From Arenicola marina (lineage: Eukaryota > Annelida > Polychaeta > Arenicolidae), in assembly GCA_964019135.1 (NCBI GenBank), contig OZ025249.1, forward strand, positions 15,153,088-15,217,087: 64,000 bases of DNA, given 5' to 3'. Below, in pieces: positions 7,611 to 48,466 of this stretch (position 1 is the first letter of the stretch; each line of letters opens with the position of its first letter). The notes beneath the pieces are model-generated. The model ran no database searches. It was not told the origin of the DNA and worked only from the letters and a program-made list of their open reading frames with translations. A program made the translations under genes and the position numbers.

Positions 7611-10600
7611 GTATGGTGGGTTAATATTACACGCTATATAGGCCTTGGTGGGTGGTGGGTCTACATTACATGGGGCCCACCACGACACGCTATATAGGCC
7701 TTGGTGGGTCGTGGGTTTACATTACATGGGGCCCACCACGACACACTATATAGGCCTTGGTGGGTGGTGGGTCTACATTACATGGGGCCCACCACGACAC
7801 GCTGTATAGGCCTTGGTGGGTCGTGGGTGGGTTTACATTACATGGGGCCCACCAAGACACGCTATATAGGCCTTGGTGGGTGGTGGGTTTACATTACATG
7901 GGGCCCACCACGACACGCTATATAGGCCTTGGTGGGTCGTGGGTGGGTTTACATTACATGGGGCCCACCACGACACACTATATAGGCCTTGGTGGGTCGT
8001 GGGTTTACATTACATGGGGCCCACCACGACACGCTGTATAGGCCTTGGTGGGTCGTGGGTTTACATTACATGGGGCCCACCACGACACGCTATATAGGCC
8101 TTGGTGGGTCGTGGGTTTACATTACATGGGGCCCACCACGACACGCTATATAGGCCTTGGTGGGTCGTGGGTTTACATTACATGGGGCCCACCACGACAC
8201 GCTATATAGGCCTTGGTGGGTCGTGGGTGGGTTTACATTACATGGGGCCCACCACGACACGCTGTATAGGCCTTGGTGGGTCGTGGGTTTACATTACATG
8301 GGGCCCACCACGACACGCTATATAGGCCTTGGTGGGTCGTGGGTCTACATTACATGGGGCCCACCACGACACGCTGTATAGGCCTTGGTGGGTCGTGGGT
8401 GGGTTTACATTACATGGCCCACCACGACACGCTGTATAGGCCTTGGTGGGTCGTGGGTGGGTTTACATTACATGGGGCCCACCACGACACGCTGTATAGG
8501 CCTTGGTGGGTCGTGGGTGGGTTTACATTACATGGGGCCCACCACGACACGCTGTATAGGCCTTGGTGGGTCGTGGGTTTACATTACATGGGGCCCACCA
8601 CGACACGCTATATAGGCCTTGGTGGGTCGTGGGTGGGTTTACATTACATGGGGCCCACCACGACACGCTATATAGGCCTTGGTGGGTCGTGGGTTTACAT
8701 TACATGGGGCCCACCACGACACGCTATATAGGCCTTGGTGTGTCGTGGGTTTACATTACATGGGGCCCACCACGACACGCTATATAGGCCTTGGTGGGTC
8801 GTGGGTTTACATTACATGGGGCCCACCACGACACGCTATATAGGCCTTGGTGGGTCGTGGGTTTACATTACATGGGGCCCACCACGACACGCTGTATAGG
8901 CCTTGGTGGGTCGTGGGTTTACATTACATGGGGCCCACCACGACACGCTATATAGGCCTTGGTGGGTCGTGGGTTTACATTACATGGGGCCCACCACGAC
9001 ACGCTATATAGGCCTTGGTGGGTCGTGGGTGGGTTTACATTACATGGGGCCCACCACGACACGCTGTATAGGCCTTGGTGGGTCGTGGGTTTACATTACA
9101 TGGGGCCCACCACGACACGCTATATAGGCCTTGGTGGGTCGTGGGTCTACATTACATGGGGCCCACCACGACACGCTGTATAGGCCTTGGTGGGTCGTGG
9201 GTGGGTTTACATTACATGGCCCACCACGACACGCTGTATAGGCCTTGGTGGGTCGTGGGTGGGTTTACATTACATGGGGCCCACCACGACACGCTGTATA
9301 GGCCTTGGTGGGTCGTGGGTGGGTTTACATTACATGGGGCCCACCACGACACGCTGTATAGGCCTTGGTGGGTCGTGGGTTTACATTACATGGGGCCCAC
9401 CACGACACGCTATATAGGCCTTGGTGGGTCGTGGGTGGGTTTACATTACATGGGGCCCACCACGACACGCTATATAGGCCTTGGTGGGTCGTGGGTTTAC
9501 ATTACATGGGGCCCACCACGACACGCTATATAGGCCTTGGTGTGTCGTGGGTTTACATTACATGGGGCCCACCACGACACGCTATATAGGCCTTGGTGGG
9601 TCGTGGGTTTACATTACATGGGGCCCACCACGACACGCTGTATAGGCCTTGGTGGGTCGTGGGTTTACATTACATGGGGCCCACCACGACACGCTATATA
9701 GGCCTTGGTGGGTCGTGGGTGGGTTTACATTACATGGGGCCCACCACGACACGCTATATAGGCCATGGTGGGTCGTGGGTGGGTTTACATTACATGGGGC
9801 CCACCACGACACGCTGTATAGGCCTTGGTGGGTCGTGGGTGGGTTTACATTACATGGGGCCCACCACGACACGCTATATAGGCCTTGGTGGGTCGTGGGT
9901 GGGTTTACATTACATGGGGCCCACCACGACACGCTATATAGGCCTTGGTGGGTCGTGGGTTTACATTACATGGGGCCCACCACGACACGCTGTATAGGCC
10001 TTGGTGGGTCGTGGGTTTACATTACATGGGGCCCACCACGACACGCTATATAGGCCTTGGTGGGTCGTGGGTTTACATTACATGGGGCCCACCACGACAC
10101 GCTATATAGGCCTTGGTGGGTCGTGGGTTTACATTACATGGGGCCCACCACGACACGCTATATAGGCCTTGGTGGGTCGTGGGTTTACATTACATGGGGC
10201 CCACCACGACACGCTGTATAGGCCTTGGTGGGTCGTGGGTTTACATTACATGGGGCCCACCACGACACGCTATATAGGCCTTGGTGGGTCGTGGGTGGGT
10301 TTACATTACATGGGGCCCACCACGACACGCTATATAGGCCTTGGTGGGTCGTGGGTTTACATTACATGGGGCCCACCACGACACGCTATATAGGCCTTGG
10401 TGTGTCGTGGGTTTACATTACATGGGGCCCACCACGACACGCTATATAGGCCTTGGTGGGTCGTGGGTTTACATTACATGGGGCCCACCACGACACGCTA
10501 TATAGGCCTTGGTGGGTCGTGGGTTTACATTACATGGGGCCCACCACGACACGCTATATAGGCCTTGGTGGGTCGTGGGTTTACATTACATGGGGCCCAC

Positions 10601-13600
10601 CACGACACGCTATATAGGCCTTGGTGGGTCGTGGGTTTACATTACATGGGGCCCACCACGACACGCTATATAGGCCTTGGTGGGTCGTGGGTGGGTTTAC
10701 ATTACATGGGGCCCACCACGACACGCTGTATAGGCCTTGGTGGGTCGTGGGTTTACATTACATGGGGCCCACCACGACACGCTATATAGGCCTTGGTGGG
10801 TCGTGGGTCTACATTACATGGGGCCCACCACGACACGCTGTATAGGCCTTGGTGGGTCGTGGGTGGGTTTACATTACATGGCCCACCACGACACGCTGTA
10901 TAGGCCTTGGTGGGTCGTGGGTGGGTTTACATTACATGGGGCCCACCACGACACGCTGTATAGGCCTTGGTGGGTCGTGGGTGGGTTTACATTACATGGG
11001 GCCCACCACGACACGCTGTATAGGCCTTGGTGGGTCGTGGGTTTACATTACATGGGGCCCACCACGACACGCTATATAGGCCTTGGTGGGTCGTGGGTGG
11101 GTTTACATTACATGGGGCCCACCACGACACGCTATATAGGCCTTGGTGGGTCGTGGGTTTACATTACATGGGGCCCACCACGACACGCTATATAGGCCTT
11201 GGTGTGTCGTGGGTTTACATTACATGGGGCCCACCACGACACGCTATATAGGCCTTGGTGGGTCGTGGGTTTACATTACATGGGGCCCACCACGACACGC
11301 TGTATAGGCCTTGGTGGGTCGTGGGTTTACATTACATGGGGCCCACCACGACACGCTATATAGGCCTTGGTGGGTCGTGGGTGGGTTTACATTACATGGG
11401 GCCCACCACGACACGCTATATAGGCCATGGTGGGTCGTGGGTGGGTTTACATTACATGGGGCCCACCACGACACGCTGTATAGGCCTTGGTGGGTCGTGG
11501 GTGGGTTTACATTACATGGGGCCCACCACGACACGCTATATAGGCCTTGGTGGGTCGTGGGTGGGTTTACATTACATGGGGCCCACCACGACACGCTATA
11601 TAGGCCTTGGTGGGTCGTGGGTTTACATTACATGGGGCCCACCACGACACGCTGTATAGGCCTTGGTGGGTCGTGGGTTTACATTACATGGGGCCCACCA
11701 CGACACGCTATATAGGCCTTGGTGGGTCGTGGGTTTACATTACATGGGGCCCACCACGACACGCTATATAGGCCTTGGTGGGTCGTGGGTTTACATTACA
11801 TGGGGCCCACCACGACACGCTATATAGGCCTTGGTGGGTCGTGGGTTTACATTACATGGGGCCCACCACGACACGCTGTATAGGCCTTGGTGGGTCGTGG
11901 GTTTACATTACATGGGGCCCACCACGACACGCTATATAGGCCTTGGTGGGTCGTGGGTGGGTTTACATTACATGGGGCCCACCACGACACGCTATATAGG
12001 CCTTGGTGGGTCGTGGGTTTACATTACATGGGGCCCACCACGACACGCTATATAGGCCTTGGTGGGTCGTGGGTTTACATTACATGGGGCCCACCACGAC
12101 ACGCTATATAGGCCTTGGTGGGTCGTGGGTTTACATTACATGGGGCCCACCACGACACGCTATATAGGCCTTGGTGGGTCGTGGGTTTACATTACATGGG
12201 GCCCACCACGACACACTATATAGGCCTTGGTGGGTCGTGGGTCTACATTACATGGTGCCCACCACGACACGTTAAATAGGCCTTGGTGGGTCGTGGGTTT
12301 ACATTACATGGGGCCCACCACGACACACTATATAGACCTTGGTGGGTCGTGGGTCTACATTACATGGTGCCCACCACGACACACTATATAGGCCTTGGTG
12401 GGTCGTGGGTCTACATTACATGGTGCCCACCACGACACGCTATATAGGCCTTGGTGGGTCGTGGGTTTACATTACATGGGGCCCACCACGACACACTATA
12501 TAGACCTTGGTGGGTCGTGGGTTTACATTACATGGGGCCCACCACGACACGCTATATAGGCCTTGGTGGGTCGTGGGTTTACTTTACATGGGGCCCACCA
12601 CGACACACTATATAGACCTTGGTGGGTCGTGGGTCTACATTACATGGGGCCCACCACGATATGCTATATAGGCCTTGGTGGGTCGTGGGTTTACATTACA
12701 TGGGGCCCACCACGACACGCTATATAGGCCTTGGTGGGTCGTGGGTTTACATTACATGGGGCCCACCACGACACGCTATATAGGCCTTGGTGGGTCGTGG
12801 GTTTACATTACATGGGGCCCACCACGACACGCTATATAGGCCTTGGTGGGTCGTGGGTTTACATTACATGGGGCCCACCACAACACGCTATATAGGCCTT
12901 GGTGGGTCGTGGGTGGGTTTACATTACATGGGGCCCACCACGACACGCTGTATAGGCCTTGGTGGGTCGTGGGTTTACATTACATGGGGCCCACCACGAC
13001 ACGCTATATAGGCCTTGGTGGGTCGTGGGTTTACATTACATGGGGCCCACCACGACACGCTATATAGGCCTTGGTGGGTCGTGTGTTTACATTACATGGT
13101 GCCCACCACGACACGCTATATAGGCCTTGGTGGGTCGTGGGTTTACATTACATGGTGCCCACCACGATACGCTATATAGGCCTTGGTGGGTCGTGGGTTT
13201 ACATTACATGGGGCCCACCACGACACGCTATATAGGCCTTGGTGGGTCGTGTGTTTACATTACATGGTGCCCACCACGACACGCTATATAGGCCTTGGTG
13301 GGTCGTGGGTTTACATTACATGGTGCCCACCACGATACGCTATATAGGCCTTGGTGGGTCGTGGGTTTACATTACATGGGGCCCACCACGACACGCTATA
13401 TAGGCCTTGGTGGATCGCGTGTTTACATTACATGGTGCCCACCACGATACGCTATATAGGCCTTGGTGGGTCGTGGGTTTACATTACATGGGGCCCACCA
13501 CGACACGCTATAGGCCTTGGTGGGTCGTGGGTTTACATTACATGGCCCACCACGACACGCTATATAGGCCTTGGTGGGTCGTGGGTTTACATTACATGGG

Positions 13601-16028
13601 GCCCACCACGACACGCTATATAGGCCTTGGTGGGTCGTGGGTTTACATTACATGGGGCCCACCACGACACGCTATATAGGCCTTGGTGGGTCGTGGGTTT
13701 ACATTACATGGGGCCCACCACGACACGCTATATAGGCCTTGGTGGGTCGTGGGTTTACATTACATGGGGCCCACCACGACACACTATATAGGCCTTGGTG
13801 GGTCGTGGGTCTACATTACATGGTGCCCACCACGACACGTTAAATAGGCCTTGGTGGGTCGTGGGTTTACATTACATGGGGCCCACCACGACACACTATA
13901 TAGACCTTGGTGGGTCGTGGGTCTACATTACATGGTGCCCACCACGACACACTATATAGGCCTTGGTGGGTCGTGGGTCTACATTACATGGTGCCCACCA
14001 CGACACGCTATATAGGCCTTGGTGGGTCGTGGGTTTACATTACATGGGGCCCACCACGACACACTATATAGACCTTGGTGGGTCGTGGGTTTACATTACA
14101 TGGGGCCCACCACGACACGCTATATAGGCCTTGGTGGGTCGTGGGTTTACATTACATGGGGCCCACCACGACACACTATATAGACCTTGGTGGGTCGTGG
14201 GTCTACATTACATGGGGCCCACCACGATATGCTATATAGGCCTTGGTGGGTCGTGGGTTTACATTACATGGGGCCCACCACGACACGCTATATAGGCCTT
14301 GGTGGGTCGTGGGTTTACATTACATGGGGCCCACCACGACACGCTATATAGGCCTTGGTGGGTCGTGGGTTTACATTACATGGGGCCCACCACGACACGC
14401 TATATAGGCCTTGGTGGGTCGTGGGTTTACATTACATGGGGCCCACCACAACACGCTATATAGGCCTTGGTGGGTCGTGGGTGGGTTTACATTACATGGG
14501 GCCCACCACGACACGCTGTATAGGCCTTGGTGGGTCGTGGGTTTACATTATATGGGGCCCACCACGACACGCTATATAGGCCTTGGTGGGTCGTGGGTTT
14601 ACATTACATGGGGCCCACCACGACACGCTATATAGGCCTTGGTGGGTCGTGTGTTTACATTACATGGTGCCCACCACGACACGCTATATAGGCCTTGGTG
14701 GGTCGTGGGTTTACATTACATGGTGCCCACCACGATACGCTATATAGGCCTTGGTGGGTCGTGGGTTTACATTACATGGGGCCCACCACGACACGCTATA
14801 TAGGCCTTGGTGGGTCGTGGGTTTACATTACATGGTGCCCACCACGATACGCTATATAGGCCTTGGTGGGTCGTGGGTTTACATTACATGGGGCCCACCA
14901 CGACACGCTATATAGGCCTTGGTGGATCGCGTGTTTACATTACATGGTGCCCACCACGATACGCTATATAGGCCTTGGTGGGTCGTGGGTTTACATTACA
15001 TGGGGCCCACCACGACACGCTATAGGCCTTGGTGGGTCGTGGGTTTACATTACATGGCCCACCACGACACGCTATATAGGCCTTGGTGGATCGTGGGTTT
15101 ACATTACATGGGGCCCACCACGACACGCTATAGGCCTTGGTGGGTCGTGGGTTTACATTACATGGCCCACCACGACACGCTATATAGGCCTTGGTGGGTC
15201 GTGTGTTTACATTACATGGGGCCCACCACGACACGCTATATAGGCCTTGGTGGGTCGTGGGTTTACATTACATGGTGCCCACCACGATACGCTACATAGG
15301 CCTTGGTGGGTCGTGGGTTTACATTACATGGCCCACCACGATACGCTATAGGCCTTGGTGGGTCGTGGGTTTACATTACATGGCCCACCACGACACGTTA
15401 AATAGGCCATGGTGGGTCGTGGGTTTACATTACGTGGGGCCCACCACGACACGCTATATAGGCCTTGGTGGGTCGTGGGTTTACATTACATGGGGCCCAC
15501 CACGACACGCTATAGGTCTTGGTGGGTCGTGGGTTTACATTACATGGCCCACTACGACACGCTATATAGGCCTTGGTGGATCGTGGGTTTACATTACATG
15601 GGGCCCACCACGACACGCTATAGGCCTTGGTGGGTCGTGTGTTTACATTACATGGTGCCCACCACGACACGCTATGTAGGCCATGGTGGGTCGTGGGTTT
15701 ACATTACATGGGGCCCACCACGACACGCTATATAGGCCTTGGTGGGTCGTGGGTTTACATTACATGGGGCCCACCACGACATGCTATATAGGCCTTGGTG
15801 GGTCGTGGGTTTACATTACATGGGGCCCACCACGACACGCTATATAGGCCTTGGTGGGTCGTGGGTTTACATTACATGGGGCCCACCACGACACGCTATA
15901 TAGGCTTTGGTGGGTCGTGGGTTTACATTACATGGGCCCACCACGACACGCTATATAGGCCTTGGTGGGTCGTGTGTTTACATTACATGGGGCCCACCAC
16001 GACACGCTATATAGGGCTTGGTGGGTCG
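7611..16028. repeat. 56/60-bp minisatellite, about 148 copies
   Basis: Head-to-tail units of 56 bp alternate with units of 60 bp that carry an extra GGGT in the GGGTGGGT segment. Every unit contains TACATTACATGG, GGGCCC, CACCACGACACGC and TATATAGGCCTTGG. Within a unit CCCACCA pairs with the downstream TGGTGGG, and CCACGAC pairs with GTCGTGG, so each monomer can form a hairpin. Copies are very similar. Long blocks recur at exact offsets (1,662 bp and 1,568 bp), showing higher-order duplication. The array runs into an assembly gap, so its true length is unknown. All open frames in it are repeat translations. Confidence 0.97.
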
Positions 16029-16228
16029 NNNNNNNNNNNNNNNNNNNNNNNNNNNNNNNNNNNNNNNNNNNNNNNNNNNNNNNNNNNNNNNNNNNNNNNN
16101 NNNNNNNNNNNNNNNNNNNNNNNNNNNNNNNNNNNNNNNNNNNNNNNNNNNNNNNNNNNNNNNNNNNNNNNNNNNNNNNNNNNNNNNNNNNNNNNNNNNN
16201 NNNNNNNNNNNNNNNNNNNNNNNNNNNN
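16029..16228. other. Assembly gap of 200 N
   Basis: Exactly 200 N characters, probably a placeholder for an unresolved part of the adjoining minisatellite, because the array is intact up to the last base before the gap and absent after it. Confidence 0.99.
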
Positions 16229-17063
16229 ATGGAAAATCAATGGAATGGGGGTATGGGGAGGGAGGCGGGGAGGGGGAGGGGGGCGGGCGCGGGCGCGGGC
16301 GGGGCCACGGCGGATAGTTGGGCGAGGTAGACCTCGCCTGTCAGTGCCCCCCGCCCCTCCCCCCCCCCACTCCCTCCCGGCCTCTCCACTGACAATCACG
16401 GGTGTTCCGTTCTTGGGGCGGGTCCGGACCCTCCCTCTGGCCCACCCACTATCAGCCCCCTCCCCCTCATCACCCACCTCTAGACCATCCCAATCTATGC
16501 CCCCTAAATTGCTAAGCACGTTCCTCGCGTCTATGGAAGAACGTAAATTCATATCACAATTTGTCTTGGTGCGAGCGGAAGGCGATGGGCGGGATGGGGC
16601 GGGTAGGGGGCGGTCGTCGGGGTGGGGGTCAGGGTGCGGCGGTCGTGTGCGGTGGTGTGAAAAGGGGCGGAGCGGGAGGGGTTAGAAGTTGGTGCGGGTG
16701 GGGGGCGTGGTGAGGAGGTGTGGCTGTAAAGGGGTTAGGGCGTTGTCAGTGGGTGCCCCGTGACCAAAGAAGTTGCACTGTATAAGGGCTTAACATAATC
16801 CCTTCTTTTTCTACCCTTTTGCGTTAAATTTGGCTGCATTTATATTATTACCCAACCGGTTCACACGTTTGAAATTTTTATCTATTTGAAATATTTTTAC
16901 CATTATCCCGAGTATGATGCGTTTAGACAGGGAGAAATAGTCAAAGGCGATACTTCGACTTTTCGTGACGTCAATAAACTTTACGATAAAAGAGATGGTA
17001 CGCGATATTCTCCTGCCTGTCTCGCTATATATTCTCTCTTGCCTATTATTAGCATGATCAACC
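16229..17063. other. GC-rich sequence after the gap, no gene recognised
   Basis: Starts with G-rich runs and a short GCGGGC microsatellite, followed by pyrimidine-rich and then mixed sequence. A CRE octamer TGACGTCA lies at 16,966-16,973. Nothing here looks like an exon. Confidence 0.55.
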
Positions 17064-17803
17064 ATTAAAACCTAGCCCAGTGAACTTGACCCTTCTGACA
17101 ACAAGCTGATAGGCAGAAGGGTCAAGCAATACAAATGGTAAAAAAAGTAGTAATGCATAACCAAGCTCACTTCGATGAATGATTGTCGATTATGACAACG
17201 AGCCTGCCTCTTTAACTCGCCGCGACCCTCTTCTTTACACATTACTTGGACCCTAGGATGCATTAATTTTAAAGTTTGCTCTCTATTACTTGCACATGAA
17301 TGATATTTTCATCGGTTGTTAACGGCTTTCCTCTCTGACGCTTCAAATTTGACCAGGCAATAAAACAGACATAATCCGCATGGCGGCGCCGCTAGTTGCG
17401 TCAAAAACGCAGGCACGACTATAGACACACAACAAGAATTAGTGGCGCCGCCATACGGAAACTGTCGGGTGTATTACCTGATGTCAACAAACGAGCCGCG
17501 GCAACCGCCTAGAAAAATTTGAAGCGGCACGGAGGGAAACCGTTAACGACCGACGAAAATATCATTGATGTGCAAGAAGTAGAGAGCAAACTTTAAAATG
17601 AATGCATCCTATGGTCCAAGTAATGTCTAAAGAAGAGGGTCGAGGCGATGAGGAGAGGTAGGTTCGTCGTCACAATCGACAATCATTCATCGAAGCGAGC
17701 TGGGTGATGCAATGCTACTTTTTTGACTGTGTGTATGGCATGGCCCTTACACCCCCGTTAGGGTTGAGGTCGTGAGGGCCATGCGTCAGGGCTAATTAAA
17801 ACC
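17064..17803. mobile_element. Fold-back DNA transposon / MITE with 9-bp target-site duplication
   Basis: The element proper is 17,073-17,794 (722 bp). It is flanked by a perfect 9-bp direct repeat, ATTAAAACC, at 17,064-17,072 and 17,795-17,803. It begins TAGCCC and ends with the complement GGGCTA. Long imperfect inverted arms (about 17,141-17,396 and 17,438-17,724) are separated by only about 41 bp, so the whole element can fold on itself. Between each terminus and its long arm lies a separate small hairpin: 13-bp perfect stems at 17,085-17,097 / 17,114-17,126, and 10-bp perfect stems at 17,738-17,747 / 17,775-17,784. It has no transposase frame, so it is non-autonomous. A 9-bp duplication with long inverted repeats is what Mutator-like (MULE) elements leave, but the family assignment is inference. 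The arms have diverged, so it is not very recent. Confidence 0.85.
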
Positions 17804-19160: not shown

Positions 19161-20566
19161 CGGAAGAGGACAATTAAGGGAGTGTTCCTTTAGTGCGAGA
19201 GGACCACTAAGAGAGTGTTCCTTTAGTGAGAGAGGACCACTAAGGGAGTGTTCCTTTAGTGGGAGAGGACAATTATGAGAATGTTCCTTTATTGAGGGAG
19301 GACAACTAAGAGAGTGTTCCTTTACTGGGAGAGGACAATTATGAGAATGTTCCTTTATTGAGGGAGGACAACAAAGAGAGTGTTCCTTTAGTGGGAGAGG
19401 ACAATTAAGGGAGTGTTCCTTTAGTGGGAGAGAACCATAAAGGGAGTGTTCCTTTATTGAGGGAGGACAATAAAGAGAGTGTTCCTTCAGTGGGAGAGCA
19501 CAAGAGAGTGTTCTTTTATTGACAGAGGACAACTAAGAGAGTGTTCCTTTAGTGAGAGAGGACAACTAAGAGAGTGTTCCTTTATTGAGAGAGGACCACT
19601 AAGAGAGTGTTCCTTTAGTGAAAGAGGACAACTAAGAGTGTTCCTAGATTGAGAGAGGACCACTAAGAGAGTGTTCCTTTAGTGAGAGAGGACCACTAAG
19701 AGAGTGTTCCTTGAGTGAGAGAGGACAACTAAGACATTGTTCCTTTAGTGGGAGAGGACAACTAAGCGATTGTTCCTTTAGTGGGAGAGGACCACTAAGA
19801 GAGTGTTCCTTCGGTGAAAGAGGACAATTAGGAGAGTGTTCCTTTAGTGGGAGAGGACAACTAAAAGTATGTTCCTTTAGTGGGAGAGGACAATTAAGAG
19901 AGTGTTCCTTTAGTGAGAGAGGACCACTAAGAGAGGGTTCCTTTAGTGAGAGATGACAATTAAGAGAGGGTTCCTTTAGTGGGAGAGGACAACTAAGAGA
20001 GTGTTCCTTTAGTGGGAGAGGACAACTAAGAGAGTGTTCCTTTAGTGGGAGAGGACAACTAAGAGAGTGTTCCTTTAGTGGGAGAGGACAACTAAGAGAG
20101 TGTTCCTTCAGTGAGAGAGGACAATTAAGAGAGTGATCCTTTAGTGGGAGAGGACAACTAAGAGAGTTTTCCTTTAGTGGGAGAGGACAATTAAGGGAGT
20201 GTTCCTTCAGTGAGAGAGGACAATTAAGAGAGTGATCCTTTAGTGGAAGAGGACAACTAAGAGATTGTTCCTTTAGTAGGAGAGGACCACTAAGAGAGTG
20301 TTCCTTTAGTGGGAGAGGACAACTAAGAGAGTGTTCCTTCAGTGAGAGAGGACAATTAAGAGAGTGATCCTTTAGTGGGAGAGGAAAACTAAGAGAGTGT
20401 TCCTTTAGTGGGAGAGGACCACTAAGAGAGTGTTCCTTTAGTGGGAGAGGACAACTAAGAGAGTGTTTCTTTAGTGGGAGAGGACAATTAAGAGAGTGTT
20501 CCTTTAGTGGGAGAGGACAAATAAGAGAGTGTTCCTTTAGTGAGAGAGGAAAACTAAGGGAGTGAG
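19161..20566. repeat. 33-bp minisatellite, about 42 copies
   Basis: The unit contains GTGTTCCTTTAGTGGGAGAGG followed by ACAACTAAGAGA, with exchanges between AACTAAG, CACTAAG and AATTAAG. Because 33 is divisible by three, the minus strand reads as an 11-residue repeat (LKEHSLSCPLP-like) without stops. Changes between copies alter the would-be protein freely, which points to non-coding drift rather than a repetitive protein gene. It abuts the next array with no unique spacer. Confidence 0.95.
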
Positions 20567-23500
20567 GGGGAAAGTGGGAGGACTCCATTGGTTTGAGGGG
20601 GACTGTTGGAGGACTCCTTTGGTGTGAGGGGGACTGTGGGAGGAATCCTTTGGTGTGAGGGGGACTTGAGAGGACTCCATTGGTGTGAGGGGGACTGTGG
20701 GAGGAATCCATTGGTGTGAGGGGGACTGTGGGACTCCATTGGTGTGAGAGGGACTGTGGGAGGACTCCTTTGGTGTGAGGGGGACTGTTGAAGGACTCTA
20801 TTGGTGTGAGGGGGACTGTTGGAGGACTCCATTGGTGTGAGGGGGACTGTGGGAGGACTCCATTGGTGTGAGGGAGACTGTGGGAGGACTCCATTGGTGT
20901 GAGGGGGACTGTGGGAGGAATCCATTGGTGTGAGGGGGACTGTGGGGCTCCATTGGTGTGAGGGGGACTGTGGGAGGACTCCTTTGGTGTGAGGGGGACT
21001 GTTGAAGGACTCCATTGGTGTGAGGGGGACTGTTGGAGGACTCCATTGGTGTGAGGGGGACTGTGGGACTCCATTGATGTGAGGGGGACTGTGGGAGGAC
21101 TCCATTGGTGTGAGCGGAACTGTGGGAGGACTTCATTGGTGTGAGGGGGACTGTGGAAGGACTTCATTGGTGTAAGGGTGACTGTGGGAGGACTCCATTG
21201 GTGTGAGGGTGACTGTGGGATGACTCCATTGATGTGAGGGAGACTGTGGAAGGACTTCATTAGTGAGAGGGGGACTGTGGGAGGACTCCATTGGTGTGAG
21301 GGGGCTGTGGGGGACTCCATTGGTGAGAGGGGGACTGTGGGAGGACTCCATTGGCGTGAGGGGGACTGTGGGAGGACTCCGTTGGTGTGAGGGAGACTGT
21401 GGGAGGACTCCATTGGTGTGAGGGGGACTGTGGGAGGACTCCATTGGTGTGAGGGGGACTGTGAGGGGACTCCATTGGTGTGAGGGGACTGTGGGGGGAC
21501 TCCATTGGTGTGTGGGTGACTGTGGGAGGACTCCATTGGTGTGAGGGGAACTGTGGAAGGACTTCATTGGTGTAAGGGTGACTGTGAGAGGACTCCATTG
21601 GTGTGAGGGGGACTGTGGGACTCCATTGATGTGAGGGGGACTGTGGGAGGACTCCATTGGTGTGAGCGGAACTGTGGTAGGAATTCATTGGTGTGAGGGG
21701 ACTGTGGAAGGACTTCATTGGTGTAAGGGTGACTGTGGGAGGACTCCATTGGTGTGAGGGTGACTGTGGGAGGACTCCATTGGTGTGAGGGGGACTGTGG
21801 GATGACTCCATAGATGTGAGGGAGACTGTGGAAGGACTCCATTAGTGAGAGCGGGACTGTGGGAGGAGTCCATTGGTGTGAGGGGGCTGTGGGGGACTCC
21901 ATTGGTGAGAGGGGGACTGTGGGAGGACTCCATTGGCGTGAGGGGGACTGTGGGAGGACTTCATTGGTGTGAGGGGGACTGTGGGAGGACTCCGTTGGTG
22001 TGAGGGAGACTGTGGGAGGACTCCATTGGTGTGAGGGGGACTGTGGGAGGACTCCATTGGTGAGAGGGGGACTGTGAGGGGACTCCATTGGTGTGAGGGG
22101 ACTGTGGGGGGACTCCATTGGTGTGTGGGTGACTGTGGGAGGACTCCATTGGTGTGAGGGGGACTGTGGGAGGACTCCATTGGTGTGAGGGGACTGTGGG
22201 AGGACTCCATTGGTGTGAGGGGGACTGTGGAAGGACTTCATTGGTGTAAGGGTGACTGTGGGAGGACTCCATTGGTGTGAGGGTGACTGTGGGAGGACTC
22301 CATTGGTGTGAGGGGGACTGTGGGATGACTCCATTGATGTGAGGGAGACTGTGGAAGGACTCCATTGGTGAGAGGGGGACTGTGGGAGGACTCCATTGGT
22401 GTGAGGGGGCTGTGGGGGACTCCATTGGTGAGAGGGGGACTGTGGGAGGACTCCATTGGCGTGAGGGGGACTGTGGGAGGACTTCATTGGTGTGAGGGGG
22501 ACTGTGGGAGGACTCCGTTGGTGTGAGGGAGACTGTGGGAGGACTCCATTGGTGTGAGGGGGACTGTGGGAGGACTCCATTGGTGTGAGGGGGACTGTGA
22601 GGGGACTCCATTAGTGTGAGGGGACTGTGGGGGGACTCCATTGGTGTGTGGGTGACTGTGGGAGGACTCCATTGGTGTGAGGGGGACTGTGGTGGGACGC
22701 TATTGGTGTGAGGGGGACTGTGGGGGACGCCATTGGTGTGAGGGGGGCTGTGGGGGGACGCCATTGGTGTGAGGGGGACTGTGGGGGGACGCTATTGGTG
22801 GGAGGGGGGACTCCATTGGTGTGAGGGTGACTGTGGGGGACTCCATTGGTGTGAGGGGCACTGTGGGCGGACTCCATTGGTGTGAGGGGGACTGTGAAGG
22901 TCTCCTTTGGTGTGAGGGGGACTGTAGGACTCCATTGGTGTGAGGGGGACTGTGGAAGGACTCCATTGGTGTAAGGGGGACTGTGGGACTCCATTGGTGT
23001 GAGGGGGACTGTGGGAGGACTCCATTGGTGTGAGGGGGACTGTGGGAGGAATCCATTGGTGTGAGGGGACTGTGGGACTCCATTGGTGTGAGGGGGACTG
23101 TGGGAGGACTCCTTTGGTGTGAGGGGGACCTGAGAGGACTCCATTGGTGTGAGGGGGACTGTGGGAGGAATCCATTGGTGTGAGGGGGACTGTGGGACTC
23201 CATTGGTGTGAGGGGGACTGTGGGAGGACTCCTTTGGTGTGAGGGGGACTGTTGAAGGACTCCATTGGTGTGAGGGGGACTGTTGGAGGACTCCATTGGT
23301 GTGAGGGGGACTGTGGGAGGACTCCATTGGTGTGAGGGAGACTGTGGGAGGACTCCATTGGTGTGAGGGGGACTGTGGGAGGAATCCATTGGTGTGAGGG
23401 GGACTGTGGGGCTCCATTTGTGTGAGGGGGACTGTGGGAGGAATCCATTGGTGTGAGGGGGACTGTGGGACTCCATTGGTGTGAGGGGGACTGTGGGAGG

Positions 23501-26500
23501 ACTCCTTTGGTGTGAGGGGGACTGTTGAAGGACTCCATTGGTGTGAGGGGGACTGTTGGAGGACTCCATTGGTGTGTACGGGGGACTGTGGGACTCCATT
23601 GATGTGAGGGGGACTGTGGGAGGACTCCATTGGTGTGAGGGGGACTGTGGGAGGACTCCATTGGTGTGAGGGAGACTGTGGGAGGACTCCATTGGTGTGA
23701 GGGGGACTGTGGGAGGAATCCATTGGTGTGAGGGGGACTGTTGGAGGACTCCATTGGTGTGAGGGGGACTGTGGGAGGACTCCATTGGTGTGAGGGAGAC
23801 TGTGGGAGGACTCCATTGGTGTGAGGGGGACTGTGGGAGGAATCCATTGGTGTGAGGGGGACTGTGGGGCTCCATTTGTGTGAGGGGGACTGTGGGAGGA
23901 ATCCATTGGTGTGAGGGGGACTGTGGGACTCCATTGGTGTGAGGGGGACTGTGGGAGGACTCCTTTGGTGTGAGGGGGACTGTTGAAGGACTCCATTGGT
24001 GTGAGGGGGACTGTTGGAGGACTCCATTGGTGTGAGGGGGACTGTGGGACTCCATTGATGTGAGGGGGACTGTGGGAGGACTCCATTGGTGTGAGCGGAA
24101 CTGTGGGAGGACTTCATTGGTGTGAGGGGGACTGTGGAAGGACTTCATTGGTGTAAGGGTGACTGTGGGGGGACTCCATTGGTGTGTGGGTGACTGTGGG
24201 AGGACTCCATTGGTGTGAGGGGGACTGTGGTGGGACGCTATTGGTGTGAGGGGGACTGTGGGGGACGCCATTGGTGTGAGGGGGACTGTGGGGGGACGCC
24301 ATTGGTGTGAGGGGGACTGTGGGGGGACGCTATTGGTGGGAGGGGGGACTCCATTGGTGTGAGGGTGACTGTGGGGGACTCCATTGGTGTGAGGGGCACT
24401 GTGGGCGGACTCCATTGGTGTGAGGGGGACTGTGAAGGTCTCCTTTGGTGTGAGGGGGACTGTAGGACTCCATTGGTGTGAGGGGGACTGTGGAAGGACT
24501 CCATTGGTGTAAGGGGGACTGTGGGACTCCATTGGTGTGAGGCGGACTGTGGGAGGACTCCATTGGTGTGAGGGGGACTGTGGGAGGAATCCATTGGTGT
24601 GAGGGGACTGTGGGACTCCATTGGTGTGAAGGGGACTGTGGGAGGACTCCTTTGGTGTGAGGGGGACTTGAGAGGACTCCATTGGTGTGAGGGGGACTGT
24701 GGGAGGAATCCATTGGTGTGAGGGGGACTGTGGGACTCCATTGGTGTGAGGGGGACTGTGGGAGGACTCCTTTGGTGTGAGGGGGACTGTTGAAGGACTC
24801 CATTGGTGTGAGGGGGACTGTTGGAGGACTCCATTGGTGTGAGGGGGACTGTGGGAGGACTCCATTGGTGTGAGGGAGACTGTGGGAGGACTCCATTGGT
24901 GTGAGGGGGACTGTGGGAGGAATCCATTGGTGTGAGGGGGACTGTGGGGCTCCATTTGTGTGAGGGGGACTGTGGGAGGAATCCATTGGTGTGAGGGGGA
25001 CTGTGGGACTCCATTGGTGTGAGGGGGACTGTGGGAGGACTCCTTTGGTGTGAGGGGGACTGTTGAAGGACTCCATTGGTGTGAGGGGGACTGTTGGAGG
25101 ACTCCATTGGTGTGAGGGGGACTGTGGGACTCCATTGATGTGAGGGGGACTGTGGGAGGACTCCATTGGTGTGAGGGGGACTGTGGGAGGACTCCATTGG
25201 TGTGAGGGAGACTGTGGGAGGACTCCATTGGTGTGAGGGGGACTGTGGGAGGAATCCATTGGTGTGAGGGGGACTGTTGGAGGACTCCATTGGTGTGAGG
25301 GGGACTGTGGGAGGACTCCATTGGTGTGAGGGAGACTGTGGGAGGACTTCATTGGTGTGAGGGGGACTGTGGGAGGAATCCATTGGTGTGAGGGGGACTG
25401 TGGGGCTCCATTTGTGTGAGGGGGACTGTGGGAGGAATCCATTGGTGTGAGGGGGACTGTGGGACTCCATTGGTGTGAGGGGGACTGTGGGAGGATTTCT
25501 TTGGTGTGAGGGGGACTGTTGAAGGACTCCATTGGTGTGAGGGGGACTGTTGGAGGACTCCATTGGTGTGAGGGGGACTGTGGGACTCCATTGATGTGAG
25601 GGGGACTGTGGGAGGACTCCATTGGTGTGAGCGGAACTGTGGGAGGACTTCATTGGTGTGAGGGGGACTGTGGAAGGACTTCATTGGTGTAAGGGTGACT
25701 GTGGGAAGACTCCATTGGTGTGAGGGTGACTGTGGGAGGACTCCATTGGTGTGAGGGGGACTGTGGGATGACTCCATTGATGTGAGGGAGACTGTGGAAG
25801 GACTTCATTATTGAGAGGGGGACTGTGGGAGGACTCCATTGGTGTGAGGGGGCTGTGGGGGACTCCATTGGTGAGAGGGGGACTGTGGGAGGACTCCATT
25901 GGCGTGAGGGGGACTGTGGGAGGACTTCATTGGTGTGAGGGGGACTGTGGGAGGACTCCGTTGGTGTGAGGGAGACTGTGGGAGGACTCCATTGGTGTGA
26001 GGGGGACTGTGGGAGGACTCCATTGGTGTGAGGGGGACTGTGAGGGGACTCCATTGGTGTGAGGGGACTGTGGGGGGACTCCATTGGTGTGTGGGTGACT
26101 GTGGGAGGACTCCATTGGTGTGAGGGGGACTGTGGGAGGACTCCATTGGTGTGAGGGGACTGTGGGAGGACTCCATTGGTGTGAGGGGGACTGTGGAAGG
26201 ACTTCATTGGTGTAAGGGTGACTGTGAGAGGACTCCATTGGTGTGAGGGGGACTGTGGGACTCCATTGATGTGAGGGGGACTGTGGGAGGACTCCATTGG
26301 TGTGAGCGGAACTGTGGTAGGAATTCATTGGTGTGAGGGGACTGTGGAAGGACTTCATTGGTGTAAGGGTGACTGTGGGAGGACTCCATTGGTGTGAGGG
26401 TGACTGTGGGAGGACTCCATTGGTGTGAGGGGGACTGTGGGATGACTCCATTGATGTGAGGGAGACTGTGGAAGGACTCCATTAGTGAGAGGGGGACTGT

Positions 26501-29500
26501 GGGAGGAGTCCATTGGTGTGAGGGGGCTGTGGGGGACTCCATTGGTGAGAGGGGGACTGTGGGAGGACTCCATTGGCGTGAGGGGGACTGTGGGAGGACT
26601 TCATTGGTGTGAGGGGGACTGTGGGAGGACTCCGTTGGTGTGAGGGAGACTGTGGGAGGACTCCATTGGTGTGAGGGGGACTGTGGGAGGACTCCATTGG
26701 TGTGAGGGGGACTGAGGGGACTCCATTGGTGTGAGGGGACTGTGGGGGGACTCCATTGGTGTGTGGGTGACTGTGGGAGGACTCCATTGGTGTGAGGGGG
26801 ACTGTGGGAGGACTCCATTGGTGTGAGGGGACTGTGGGAGGACTCCATTGGTGTGAGGGGGACTGTGGAAGGACTTCATTGGTGTAAGGGTGACTGTGGG
26901 AGGACTCCATTGGTGTGAGGGTGACTGTGGGAGGACTCCATTGGTGTGAGGGGGACTGTGGGATGACTCCATTGATGTGAGGGAGACTGTGGAAGGACTC
27001 CATTGGTGAGAGGGGGACTGTGGGAGGACTCCATTGGTGTGAGGGGGCTGTGGGGGACTCCATTGGTGAGAGGGGGACTGTGGGAGAATTCCATTGGCGT
27101 GAGGGGGACTGTGGGAGGACTTCATTGGTGTGAGGGGGACTGTGGGAGGACTCCGTTGGTGTGAGGGAGACTGTGGGAGGACTCCATTGGTGTGAGGGGG
27201 ACTGTGGGAGGACTCCATTGGTGTGAGGGGGACTGTGTGGGGACTCCATTAGTGTGAGGGGACTGTGGGGGGACTCCATTGGTGTGTGGGTGACTGTGGG
27301 AGGACTCCATTGGTGTGAGGGGGACTGTGGGAGGACTCCATTGGTGTGAGGGGGACTGTGGTGGGACGCTATTGGTGTGAGGGGGACTGTGGGGGACGCC
27401 ATTGGTGTGAGGGGGACTGTGGGGGGACGCCATTGGTGTGAGGGGGACTGTGGGGGGACGCTATTGGTGGGAGGGGGGACTCCATTGGTGTGAGGGTGAC
27501 TGTGGGGGACTCCATTGGTGTGAGGGGGACTGTGGGGGGACTCCATTGGTGTGAGGGGGACTGTGAGGGTCTCCTTTGGTGTGAGGGGGACTGTAGGACT
27601 CCATTGGTGTGAGGGGGACTGTGGAAGGACTCCATTGGTGTGAGGGGGACTGTGGGAGGACTCCATTGGTGTGAGGGAGACTGTGGGAGGACTCCATTGG
27701 TGTGAGGGGGACTGTGGGAGGAATCCATTGGTGTGAGGGGGACTGTTGGAGGACTCCATTGGTGTGAGGGGGACTGTGGGAGGACTCCATTGGTGTGAGG
27801 GAGACTGTGGGAGGACTTCATTGGTGTGAGGGGGACTGTGGGAGGAATCCATTGGTGTGAGGGGGACTGTGGGGCTCCATTTGTGTGAGGGGGACTGTGG
27901 GAGGAATCCATTGGTGTGAGGGGGACTGTGGGACTCCATTGGTGTGAGGGGGACTGTGGGAGGATTTCTTTGATGTGACGGGGACTGTTGAAGGACTCCA
28001 TTGGTGTGAGGGGGACTGTTGGAGGACTCCATTGGTGTGAGGGGGACTGTGGGACTCCATTGATGTGAGGGGGACTGTGGGAGGACTCCATTGGTGTGAG
28101 CGGAACTGTGGGAGGACTTCATTGGTGTGAGGGGGACTGTGGAAGGACTTCATTGGTGTAAGGGTGACTGTGGGAAGACTCCATTGGTGTGAGGGTGACT
28201 GTGGGAGGACTCCATTGGTGTGAGGGGGACTGTGGGATGACTCCATTGATGTGAGGGAGACTGTGGAAGGACTTCATTATTGAGAGGGGGACTGTGGGAG
28301 GACTCCATTGGTGTGAGGGGGCTGTGGGGGACTCCATTGGTGAGAGGGGGACTGTGGGAGGACTCCATTGGCGTGAGGGGGACTGTGGGAGGACTTCATT
28401 GGTGTGAGGGGGACTGTGGGAGGACTCCGTTGGTGTGAGGGAGACTGTGGGAGGACTCCATTGGTGTGAGGGGGACTGTGGGAGGACTCCATTAGTGAGA
28501 GGGGGACTGTGGGAGGAGTCCATTGGTGTGAGGGGGCTGTGGGGGACTCCATTGGTGAGAGGGGGACTGTGGGAGGACTCCATTGGCGTGAGGGGGACTG
28601 TGGGAGGACTTCATTGGTGTGAGGGGGACTGTGGGAGGACTCCGTTGGTGTGAGGGAGACTGTGGGAGGACTCCATTGGTGTGAGGGGGACTGTGGGAGG
28701 ACTCCATTGGTGTGAGGGGGACTGAGGGGACTCCATTGGTGTGAGGGGACTGTGGGGGGACTCCATTGGTGTGTGGGTGACTGTGGGAGGACTCCATTGG
28801 TGTGAGGGGGACTGTGGGAGGACTCCATTGGTGTGAGGGGACTGTGGGAGGACTCCATTGGTGTGAGGGGGACTGTGGGAGGACTCCATTGGTGTGAGGG
28901 GGACTGTCGGGGGACTCCATTGGTGTGAGGGGACTGTGGGAGGACTCCATTGGTGTGAGGGGGACTGTGGTGGGACGCCATTGGTGTGAGGGGGACTGTT
29001 GGGGACGCCACTGGTGTGATGGGAACTGTGGGGGAACGCCATTGGTGTGAGGGGGACTGTGGGGGGACGCTATTGGTGTGGGGGGGGGGACTCCATTGGT
29101 GTGAGGGGGACTGTGGAAGGTCTTCTTTGGTGTGAGGGGGACTGTAGGGCTCCATTGGTGTGAGGGGGACTGTGGGAGGACTCCATTGGTGTGAGGGGGG
29201 ACTGTGGGAGGACTCCATTGGTGTGAGGGGGACTGTGGGAGGACTCCATTGGTGTGAGGGGGACTGTGGGAGGACTCCATTGGTGTGAGGGGGACTGTGG
29301 GAGGACTCCATTGGTGTGAGGGGGACTGTGGGGCTCCATTTGTGTGAGGGGGACTGTGGGAGGACTCCATTGGTGTGAGGGGGACTGTGGGAGGACTCCA
29401 TTGGTGTGAGGGGGACTGTGGGAGGACTCCATTGGTGTGAGGGGGACTGTGGGAGGACTCCATTGGTGTGAGGGGGACTGTGGGAGGACTCCATTGGTGT

Positions 29501-30290
29501 GAGGGGGACTGTGGAAGGTCTTCTTTGGTGTGAGGGGGACTGTAGGGCTCCATTGGTGTGAGGGGGACTGTGGGAGGACTCCATTGGTGTGAGGAGGGAC
29601 TGTGGGAGGACTCCATTGGTGTGAGGGGGACTGTGGGAGGACTCCATTGGTGTGAGGGGGACTGTGGGAGGACTCCATTGGTGTGAGGGGGACTGTGGGA
29701 GGACTCCATTGGTGTGAGGGGGACTGTGGGGCTCCATTTGTGTGAGGGGGACTGTGGGAGGACTCCATTGGTGTGAGGGGGACTGTGGGAGGACTCCATT
29801 GGTGTGAGGGGGACTGTGGGAGGACTCCATTGGTGTGAGGGGGACTGTGGGAGGACTCCATTGGTGTGAGGGGGACTGTGGGAGGACTCCATTGGTGTGA
29901 GGGGGACTGTGGGAGGACTCCATTGGTGTGAGGGGGACTGTGGGAGGACTCCATTGGTGTGAGGGGGACTGTGGGAGGACTCCATTGGTGTGAGGGGGAC
30001 TGTGGGAGGACTCCATTGGTGTAAGGGCGACTGTGGGGGGACTCCATTGGTGTGAGGGAGACTGTGGGAGGACTCCGTTGGTGTGAGGGGGACTGTGGGA
30101 GGAGTCTATTGGTGTGAGGGAGGACTGTGGGAGGAATCCATTGGCGTGAGGGGGACTGTGGGAGGATTCCATTGGCGTGAGGGGGACTATAGGGGAACTC
30201 CATTAGTGTGAGGGGTGACTCCATTGGTGTGAGGGGGAATGTGGGGGAGGGGGTGCTCCCATTGGCGTAAGGGGGCTGTGGGGGCCTCAA
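20567..30290. repeat. About 31-bp minisatellite, roughly 310 copies, 9.7 kb
   Basis: The unit contains CCATTGGTGTGAGGGGGACT plus GTGGGAGGACT. Shorter variants of about 28 bp lacking GAGGA are interspersed. A 31-bp period cycles through all three frames, so the minus strand shows very long Pro/Ser/His-rich open frames (up to 873 codons) in two or three frames at once, which is the signature of a stop-free repeat, not a gene. Characteristic variant blocks recur at offsets of about 521-523, 1,536, 2,469 and 4,640 bp, so the array grew partly by block duplication. The last few units before 30,290 are degenerate. Confidence 0.96.
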
Positions 30291-39613: not shown

Positions 39614-39800
39614 CCGGGGTTTGGAAGGGGTAAATGGCGACACGCGACACAGGGATATTTGAAAAATCGACATTCGACATTGACCTCCAAATTTCGACAC
39701 TGAAGATCTGAAAAGCGATATCGAAACAGATTTTAGAAAAAAAAACGACACTGAACTTAGCCAAACGCGACACGGAACGTCGTGAAAAATGGACACTGGA
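39614..39800 (+). mobile_element. Relative of the 120-bp element, leading into the 45-bp array
   Basis: Shares with the 32.6-kb element, in the opposite orientation, the terminal GGGGTTTG-type segment (39,616-39,623), a 23-bp identical core (39,628-39,650) and ATCGACATTCGACA nearby. Its interior is longer and full of CGACAC / GACACT words. The end that would correspond to the right terminus of the 120-bp element (TGAAAAAT, CACTGGAC, CCCCC, ACCCCTAA) continues straight into the tandem array. It is a non-coding dispersed repeat of unknown family. Confidence 0.6.
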
Positions 39801-41330
39801 CACTGGATTCCCCCTTCCATACCCCTAATATCCATGGGCTGCTGGCACTGGATTCCCCCTTCCATACCCCTAATATCCATGGGCTGCTGGCACTGGATTC
39901 CCCCTTCCATACCCCTAATATCCATGGGCTGCTGGCACTGGATTCCCCCTTCCATACCCCTAATATCCATGAGCTGCTGACACTGGATTCCCCCTTCCAT
40001 ACCCCTAATATCCATGGGCTGCTGACACTGGATTCCCCCTTCCATACCCCTAATATCCATGGGCTGCTGGCACTGGATTCCCCCTTCCATACCCCTAATA
40101 TCCATGGGCTGCTGACACTGGATTCCCCCTTCCATACCCCTAATATCCATGGGCTGCTGGCACTGGATTCCCCCTTCCATACCCCTAATATCCATGGGCT
40201 GCTGGCACTGGATTCCCCCTTCCATACCCCTAATATCCATGAGCTGCTGACACTGGATTCCCCCTTCCATACCCCTAATATCCATGGGCTGCTGACACTG
40301 GATTCCCCCTTCCATACCCCTAATATCCATGGGCTGCTGGCACTGGATTCCCCCTTCCATACCCCTAATATCCATGGGCTGCTGACACTGGATTCCCCCT
40401 TCCATACCCCTAATATCCATGGGCTGCTGGCACTGGATTCCCCCTTCCATACCCCTAATATCCATGGGCTGCTGGCACTGGATTCCCCCTTCCATACCCC
40501 TAATATCCATGAGCTGCTGACACTGGCTTCCCCCTTCCATACCCCTAATATCCATGGGCTGCTGACACTGGATTCCCCCTTCCATACCCCTAATATCCAT
40601 GGGCTGCTGACACTGGATTCCCCCTTCCATACCCCTAATATCCATGGGCTGCTGACACTGGATTCCCCCTTCCATACCCCTAATATCCATGAGCTGCTGA
40701 CACTGGATTCCCCCTTCCATACCCCTAATATCCATGAGCTGCTGGCACTGGATTCCCCCTTTCATACCCCTAATATCCATGAGCTGCTGACACTGGATTC
40801 CCCCTTCCATACCCCTAATATCCATGAGCTGCTGGCACTGGATTCCCCCTTCCATACCCCTAATATCCATGGGCTGCTGACACTGGATTCCCCCTTCCAT
40901 ACCCCTAATATCCATGGGCTGCTGGCACTGGATTCCCCCTTCCATACCCCTAATATCCATGGGCTGCTGACACTGGATTCCCCCTTCCATACCCCTAATA
41001 TCCATGGGCTGCTGACACTGGATTCCCCCTTCCATACCCCTAATATCCATGAGCTGCTGGCACTGGATTCCCCCTTCCATACCCCTAATATCCATGGGCT
41101 GCTGGCACTGGATTCCCCCTTCCATACCCCTAATATCCATGGGCTGCTGACACTGGATTCCCCCTTCCATACCCCTAATATCCATGGGCTGCTGACACTG
41201 GATTCCCCCTTCCATACCCCTAATATCCATGGGCTGCTGACACTGGATTCCCCCTTCCATACCCCTAATATCCATGGGCTGCTGACACTGGATTCCCCCT
41301 TCCATACCCCTAATATCCATGGGCTGCTGG
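39801..41330. repeat. 45-bp minisatellite, 34 copies
   Basis: The units are exactly 45 bp: 1,530 bp equals 34 x 45. Each begins CACTGGATTCCCCC, continues CCATACCCCTAATATCC and ends ATG(G/A)GCTGCTG(G/A). Copies differ at essentially these two positions plus two single changes, so the array is very homogeneous. As 45 is a multiple of three, both strands are open throughout (15-residue repeat LDSPFHTPNIHGLLA on the plus strand, MDIRGMEGGIQCQQP on the minus strand). No promoter, signal peptide or supporting exon is visible, and I do not call a gene. Confidence 0.97.
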
Positions 41331-47500: not shown

Positions 47501-48466
47501 ACAGTGAGTGGTTCATGCAGATGAGATACGCTAACAGTGAGTGGTTCATACAGATGAGATACGCTTACAGTGAGTTGTTTATACAGATGAGATACGTTAA
47601 CAGTGATTAGTTCATACAGATGAGATACGCTAACAGTGAGTTGTTTATACAGATGAGATATGCTAACAGTGAGTGGTTCATACAGATGAGATACACTAAC
47701 AGTGAGTGGTTCATACAGATGAGATACGCTAGCAGTGAGTTGTTTATTCAGATGAGATACGTTAACAGTGAGTAGTTCATACAGATGAGATACGCTAACA
47801 GTGAGTTGTTTATACAGACGAGATACGCTAACAGTGAGTGGTTCATACAGATGAGATACGCTAACAGTGAGTGGTTCATACAGATGAGATACGCTAACAA
47901 TGAGTGGTTCATACAGATGAGATACGCTAACAGTGAGTGGTTCATACAGATGAGATACGTTAACAGTGAGTGGTTCATACAGATGAGGTACGCTAACTGT
48001 GAGTGGTTCATACAGATGAGATACGCTAACAGTGAATTGTTTATACAGATGAGATACGCTAACAGTGAATTGTTCATACAGATGAGATACGCTAACAGTG
48101 AGTTGTTCATACAGATGAGATACGCTAACAGTGAGTGGTTCATACAGATGAGATACGCTGACAGTGAGTGGTTCATACAGATGAGATACGCTAACAGTGA
48201 GTGGTTCATACAGATGAGATACGCTAACAGTGAGTGGTTCATACAGATGAGATACGCTAACAGTGAGTGGTTCATACAGATGAGATGCGCTAACAGTGAG
48301 TTGTTTATACAGATGAGATACGCTAACAGTGAGTGGTTCATACAGATGAGATACGCTAACAGTGAGTGGTTCATACAGATGAGATACGCTAACAGTGAAT
48401 TGTTCATACAGATGAGATGCGCTAACAGTGAGTGGTTCATACAGATGAGATGCGCTAACAGTGACA
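44527..48466. repeat. 33-bp minisatellite, about 119 copies
   Basis: The unit reads ACAGATGAGATACGCTA then ACAGTGAGTGGTTCAT, with variants such as TTGTTTAT and TAGTTCAT. Two minus-strand frames stay open for 961 and 781 codons as 11-residue repeats (HLYEPLTVSVS and MNHSLLAYLIC), and the plus strand reads MRYANSEWFIQ until a TAG variant. Blocks recur at exactly 528 bp (16 units; 45,440 and 45,968) and 331 bp (46,879 and 47,210, sharing a GCTACACAGTG variant). I interpret it as a non-coding minisatellite. Confidence 0.96.

Follow-up and report, generated by a model that had tools for sequence, protein, structure and literature searches.

Left and right terminal hairpins of a foldback DNA transposon of Arenicola marina as apparent variants of one core

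RESULTS

A foldback transposon with a hairpin near each end

A non-autonomous foldback DNA transposon of Arenicola marina carries a hairpin close to each of its ends and, judged from their letters, the left and right hairpins are old, different variants of one core. The difference between them is largely one of paired changes, and the question of what such ends are kept for leans towards an answer in sequence rather than in shape. The element lies in a stretch of 64,000 nucleotides of contig OZ025249.1 (the window), whose numbering is used throughout:

17064..17072, no strand: left target-site duplication (TSD), ATTAAAACC, 9 bp, identical to 17795-17803; most copies have a duplication of the same kind
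17073..17794, plus strand: non-autonomous foldback DNA transposon, 722 bp, present in full-length copies; boundaries set by the TSDs
17073..17078, plus strand: left terminal inverted repeat, TAGCCC, at which the element starts; inverted match to 17789-17794, retained by most copies
17117..17358, plus strand: left foldback arm, 84% complementary to 17507-17748; takes in most of the 3' arm of the left hairpin
17354..17480, plus strand: central region, in which a further inverted repeat (CATGGCGGCGCCGC...) pairs 17354-17397 with 17437-17480
17507..17748, minus strand: right foldback arm, partner of 17117-17358
17789..17794, plus strand: right terminal inverted repeat, GGGCTA, at which the element ends; inverted match to the left TAGCCC
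17795..17803, no strand: right TSD, ATTAAAACC, 9 bp, the same letters as on the left

Because the two arms, of 242 nt each, are 84% complementary, the element is a foldback; it has the long inverted arms of foldback elements and the long terminal inverted repeats of TIR-MULEs. The arms of the Drosophila FB type consist of internal tandem repeats, whereas a tandem-repeat scan of the window reported none inside 17073-17794. The list of open reading frames contains none of 80 or more amino acids inside the element.

In a search of the genome (867 Mb), 40 of 746 candidates were scored, and all 40, the window copy included, were full-length copies at 96-100%. The pattern TAGCCC(A/T) followed by a gap and CAYAYGGTNAAAAAAGTAG gave 378 genome matches, which include at least one nested match. 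Elements were extracted with both ends as 72 entries, in which L037 appears twice, with two right ends, and the pairing of ends is doubtful for L062, L075, L110, L119 and L122. An exact 9-bp TSD flanked 49 of these 72 entries, and 64 matched at eight or more of the nine positions; an exact fit at 8 bp and one at 10 bp each occurred once. The duplicated targets lean to GG(T)...CC.

Several other arrangements of the element and of the window were seen. At L118 (G000:C3:44494000-44498000) and L038 (C1:17929510-17932753), copies of the element lie within short tandem duplications, the left flank being the same in the two copies. At L047 (G000:C19:922300-925950) the left terminal ~130 bp of the element is iterated in a tandem array with periods of 215 and 292 bp, and the match lists give similar arrays of the left terminus at C19:1218000-1221700 (L048) and C19:1055897-1059222; these arrays are apparently a transposon end that has become satellite. 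Among the matches listed, those to the left arm over G000:C8:24566723-25057370 are fragments spaced 39-87 kb apart in one orientation, which suggests a very long tandem repeat unit. Much of the window is occupied by minisatellite arrays with units of 56, 33, 31, 45, 16, 33 and 103 bp (at 7629-16028, 19165-20564, 20562-30220, 39799-41329, 42617-44405, 44531-48464 and 62345-64000, respectively), and the bases at ~16030-16240, after the first of them, are unknown. A gathering-threshold Rfam search of the window gave no matches, and a known structured RNA was dropped as an identity.

The hairpins at both element ends are real, and beyond chance. They begin 12 bp inside the left end and 10 bp inside the right end:

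17085..17097, plus strand: left hairpin, 5' arm CTTGACCCTTCTG, 13/13 paired with 17114-17126
17098..17113, plus strand: left hairpin loop, 16 nt, nearly conserved in sequence between subfamilies
17114..17126, plus strand: left hairpin, 3' arm CAGAAGGGTCAAG, 13/13 paired with 17085-17097
17738..17747, plus strand: right hairpin, one arm GCATGGCCCT, 10/10 paired with 17775-17784; one mismatch if the arm is taken as 13 nt
17775..17784, plus strand: right hairpin, other arm AGGGCCATGC, 10/10 paired with 17738-17747

As the original prediction had it, both stems pair perfectly, although the right stem extended to 13-nt arms pairs at 12 of 13 positions, ten pairs being followed by a C.A mismatch and two further pairs. 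The predicted homology of the ends was likewise confirmed, both having TAGCCC on the outside and, on the inside, ATACA and AAAAAAGTAG. Scored by its 3'-side base alone, right pair 10, the position of the mismatch, had A in 62 of the 64 typable elements among the 72. Folded as single-stranded DNA, the left hairpin had a z score of -4.7 (0 of 200 shuffles folded as well) and the right hairpin one of -3.0 (2 of 200). A control for the left hairpin alone (an exact 13-bp seed with arms no more than 45 nt apart) found four inverted repeats in 23.2 kb of non-array window DNA, all of them self-overlapping palindromes.

Paired changes between the left and right stems

A structure-free MAFFT alignment placed the two stems in register along both arms, so that they are homologous. 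Over 13 pairs, seven are the same at the left and right ends, four have changed on both sides and are still Watson-Crick (left/right: T-A/A-T, A-T/G-C, C-G/A-T and T-A/C-G), one is broken (T-A/C.A) and one is a wobble (G-C/G.T). In simulations with five changes per arm placed at random, four or more compensated pairs arose with P values of 0.0004-0.0065, the range depending on transition bias. If the right-end state GTGTGAGGG, carried by L125 and L126, is the older, there are five compensated pairs (P 0.000025-0.0007). The base at right pair 10 is G in L125 and L126 and A in L127 and L128, four loci taken because of their odd loops from a genome-wide set of 217 right stems; in the first 50 of those 217 loci it is A in 44 and G in six.

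The two blocks have a common core in inverted orientation, TG(A/G)CCCT...AGGG(T/C)CA. Because the register was obtained without reference to structure and compensated pairs exceed chance, the core observation of the original prediction stands, and the stems appear as variants of one core. Its wording, that the stems had changed on both sides in concert, fits four of the six changed pairs but overstates the extent, seven of 13 pairs being unchanged.

End blocks behave separately from the foldback arms

Four subfamilies (Y, O, T and C) were compared by consensus. One element in the C consensus, L044, had been placed in that class by a private change without being genuinely C-type, and it broke ties toward the Y state. 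Against this consensus the left block of Y or O had no differences in 50 positions, compared with 32/223 (Y) and 30/223 (O) in the left arms; at the arm rate, 0/50 has a binomial P of 0.0007. Because L044 had entered the consensus, we then compared single copies, leaving it out. Relative to Y, L104, L105 and L108 had 0, 2 and 1 changes in the 50-nt left block, each change in one copy, whereas 35-39 of 223 positions (16-17%) had changed in their left arms. All the block changes fell in the loop, so that in these three C-type left ends, the basis of the comparison, the stem is unchanged in three of three and the loop nearly so. In the right block, C (the consensus with L044) differed from Y or O at 4-5 of 52 positions, much like the arms (19-20/223). 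The left block common to the subfamilies could reflect recombination between them instead of constraint.

Left and right blocks are 43-47% different in each of the four subfamilies, while left and right arms differ by 4% in C and by 9-12% in Y, O and T; the blocks therefore behave like separate, older modules. Whatever homogenises the arms leaves the blocks apart, which suggests that the left end and the right end each have a sequence-specific site, and the comparison indicates that the two block versions parted before the sampled subfamilies did. A swap might produce the same picture: were the right block acquired whole from a related element, the concerted change would be an exchange of finished hairpins. 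The contrast between end blocks that are ~45% different and adjoining arms that differ by 4-12% agrees with such an event, as does the divergent end L057, where another block stands between TAGCCC and CATACACATGG. However, the left and right blocks align in register along both arms, so that the donor would itself have been a homologous hairpin and the question is moved one step back; we regard a swap as very improbable.

Mismatched stems have spread

Stem classes were assigned in the 64 TSD-bearing entries (63 without the L037 repeat), one left and one right end being unparsed. Among the right ends, 37 were perfect over ten pairs. An A.C mismatch at pair 6 was the only change in 14 and was accompanied by an additional change in three; A.C at pair 5 occurred in three (one of them L044, by its private change), G.T at pair 6 in two and other changes in four. 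No two of the 17 elements with A.C at pair 6 share a TSD, and two different TSDs occur in each of the G.T and pair-5 classes. These one-sided classes therefore represent separate insertions, and imperfect stems have spread. Stems unpaired in copies that had been mobilised all the same were what the original prediction named as speaking against it, and the A.C and G.T classes, with their distinct TSDs, are such copies.

A right-stem pattern allowing either purine and either pyrimidine at pair 6, the most variable pair of the right stem, matched 217 loci genome-wide (434 rows, the pattern being its own reverse complement). In the first 50 of these, pair 6 was G-C in 25, A.C in 20, G.T in five and A-T in none, so that half of these 50 stems were imperfect there. 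The doubly changed A-T state occurred at five of the 217 loci (ten rows), against ~11 expected if the sides were independent (the 50-locus sample scaled to the genome); since this is below expectation, paired states are not favoured at right pair 6. The divergent right ends (L062, L083 and L125-L128) have G-C at this pair, which is therefore probably ancestral, with A.C and G.T as one-sided derivatives. For the same reason we dropped the idea of a passage from A-T to G-C by way of the two mismatches.

For compensated changes we parsed 97 of the 100 listed rows of the TAGCCC pattern, leaving out one nested match and both ends of a locus that duplicates another letter for letter; three of 45 right ends and two of 52 left ends were unparsed. 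The 50 parsed left ends comprised 36 perfect stems, 14 with one-sided changes and none compensated, and the 42 parsed right ends included one clear compensated case, at pair 2 (GTATG/CATAC; C1:33872056). In the 64 TSD-bearing entries, left stems were perfect in 52 and changed on one side in 11. Five of the 64 elements have G.T at left pair 5, so that the left stem too tolerates wobble. In L058, L063 and L112, which share the same flank and hence are one insertion, matching bases are lost from both left arms (CTTGACCTT/AAGGTCAAG). Thus, by counts and simulations, covariation is positive between left and right and negative within each end, a caution against reading a left/right comparison by itself as covariation.

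L120 (G000:C3:57103500-57106500), a derivative of 328 bp flanked by an exact 9-bp duplication, has its right hairpin cut to GCATG-GCCAT-CATGC and is possibly a copy with a minimal right hairpin.

DISCUSSION

Template switching can turn imperfect repeats perfect. The main rival explanation is that palindrome-directed switching copied imperfect hairpins into perfect ones during replication or repair, giving concerted change without any use of the hairpin. It accounts for the four compensated left/right pairs, for the matching loss from both left arms in the L058/L063/L112 lineage and for the right end at C1:33872056, changed on both sides at pair 2; quasipalindromes are described as hotspots of template-switch mutation in the excerpt of PMC7202029 used here. 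Such correction is rare now, however, with none in 14 changed left stems and the one clear case in 42 right ends, and mismatches have outlasted amplification. Over long times template switching alone could account for the left-right pattern, but we think it rather unlikely to be the explanation.

The original prediction held that the hairpin itself, and not its sequence, was needed. With a transposase or strand-processing step recognising the extruded hairpin, selection for pairing would explain the concerted left-right changes with their low P values (lower still if GTGTGAGGG is ancestral). It would also suit Y, the least diverged and most numerous subfamily in the sample (its copies diverge by 1.6-1.8% on average, those of the A.C subfamily by 3.9-4.3%), which is fully paired over 10 bp. 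Yet mismatch-bearing classes were amplified, the base that breaks pair 10 is carried by nearly all typed elements, the doubly changed right pair 6 is not in excess, G.T recurs at left pair 5, none of the changed left stems is compensated, and the left block is conserved as sequence, its letters unchanged across the subfamily split in the stem. A broken pair in the hairpin has not kept copies from spreading well; a strict requirement for hairpin shape is therefore not supported, and we consider it unlikely. The fuller version, a cut-and-paste transposon with a 9-bp TSD whose ends are recognised partly as extruded hairpins and whose left and right ends co-evolved by paired substitutions into two types, would be structure-based end recognition by a eukaryotic DDE-type system; this we find decidedly improbable.

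The reading that we tentatively prefer, with confidence a little short of even, is that the ends are long-established transposase sites, dyad-symmetric and specific in sequence, and that the element is a Mutator-like, non-autonomous foldback (MITE-like) transposon whose transposase would be supplied elsewhere. Each end consists of TAGCCC and a dyad-symmetric block of ~60 bp. A transposase from elsewhere, most likely Mutator-like given the 9-bp TSD, would move the element by cut-and-paste, binding each end through the two inverted copies of TG(A/G)CCCT as putative half-sites and cutting at TAGCCC/GGGCTA with a 9-bp stagger. The blocks would be read as duplex DNA in a sequence-specific manner, the left and right ends being told apart. 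Use of both half-sites would maintain the dyad while one mismatch was tolerated, and extrusion as a perfect hairpin would be unnecessary for spread. What tells against half-sites read as duplex DNA is that compensation of four of the six changed left/right pairs goes beyond what half-site binding alone demands.

Comparison with the literature, made without sequence search, brought up no recognised published description of the element. The nearest parallel is Tm1, a Mutator/Foldback family of root-knot nematodes. In the portion of that description considered here (PMC3169594), Tm1 has mostly 9-bp TSDs and foldback-type inverted repeats and, like the present element, asymmetric outer terminal motifs, MITE-like non-autonomous copies and possibly acquired sequence between the arms. 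As described there, its repeats consist of variable numbers of 13-15 bp units, some copies encode a Phantom-type MULE transposase, and its hairpin is an internal histone motif; for the present element no such units were reported, no such transposase was found and the hairpins are terminal. The TSDs of our entries are of the ~9 bp typical of Mutator-like elements (MULE/MuDR) and, together with the long arms and the Tm1 parallel, point to a Mutator-like element.

In Helitron2, TSDs are as a rule absent or vary in length, and the 9-bp TSD of the present element (an exact fit for 49 of 72 entries, with single exact fits at 8 bp and at 10 bp) led us to reject membership of that group. Terminal hairpins with compensatory mutations are nevertheless already in print for Helitron2: the section of PMC3627910 drawn on here describes hairpins near both ends, as in the present element, with compensatory mutations preserving the pairing in two related elements. 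The terminal repeats described there are asymmetric, with TSDs of ~7-19 bp in the quoted case, as opposed to 9 bp and a 6-bp terminal inverted repeat here. Merlin, with an IS1016-type transposase, was set aside because its TSD is given as 8 bp (PMC10045372, in part). Tetris, a non-autonomous foldback transposon of Drosophila virilis, has TSDs of 8-10 bp, and its terminal-repeat sequence feeds satellite arrays, with which the C19 arrays may be compared; unlike the present element, it is described, in the part of the account cited (PMC4079207), as having long composite terminal repeats that contain tandem units of 220 bp.

A MULE family search located the domain at no fewer than 103 places in the genome. 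Eight of these loci, taken with ~1.5 kb of flank on each side, did not match the element. Neither these eight nor two loci from the searches for an autonomous partner yielded a complete element in which TAGCCC ends enclose a transposase. The C-type copies L104 and L105 contain an open helicase-like exon of 60 amino acids (LPTGFGKS) with, by eye, an apparent splice donor at its end. The C-type interior occurs as DNA at 13 places, and the exon as protein has at least 150 matches (150 of 219 candidates scored), some in close inverted pairs on C6 (42.16-43.1 Mb). Against Pfam DEAD it scored 15.5 bits, below the cut-off of 26, and a PDB search gave no match at E 0.1; the helicase-like gene may be that of the autonomous partner or may have been captured. 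The same genome holds foldback MULE copies, L055 and L056, with arms of ~515 bp (90-93%) and open MULE-domain frames of 366 and 375 amino acids. They resemble the present element in their long inverted arms and, at L056, in an apparent 9-10 bp TSD (by eye), but differ in their termini, which begin with repeated CTTCCAGTTGGACGAC units, and had no match to it at E below 1.

The family offers a natural test of what preserves palindromic transposon ends, shape or sequence: a single genome supplies matched ends by the hundred, more than one or two amplified classes, and a base pair at which mismatches of both kinds occur. If pairing were shown to matter, this would be unusual for an element with a target duplication of fixed length. 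The answer leans towards sequence-specific sites with tolerated mismatches, in an element of an ordinary kind whose paired difference between left and right is an interesting old feature.
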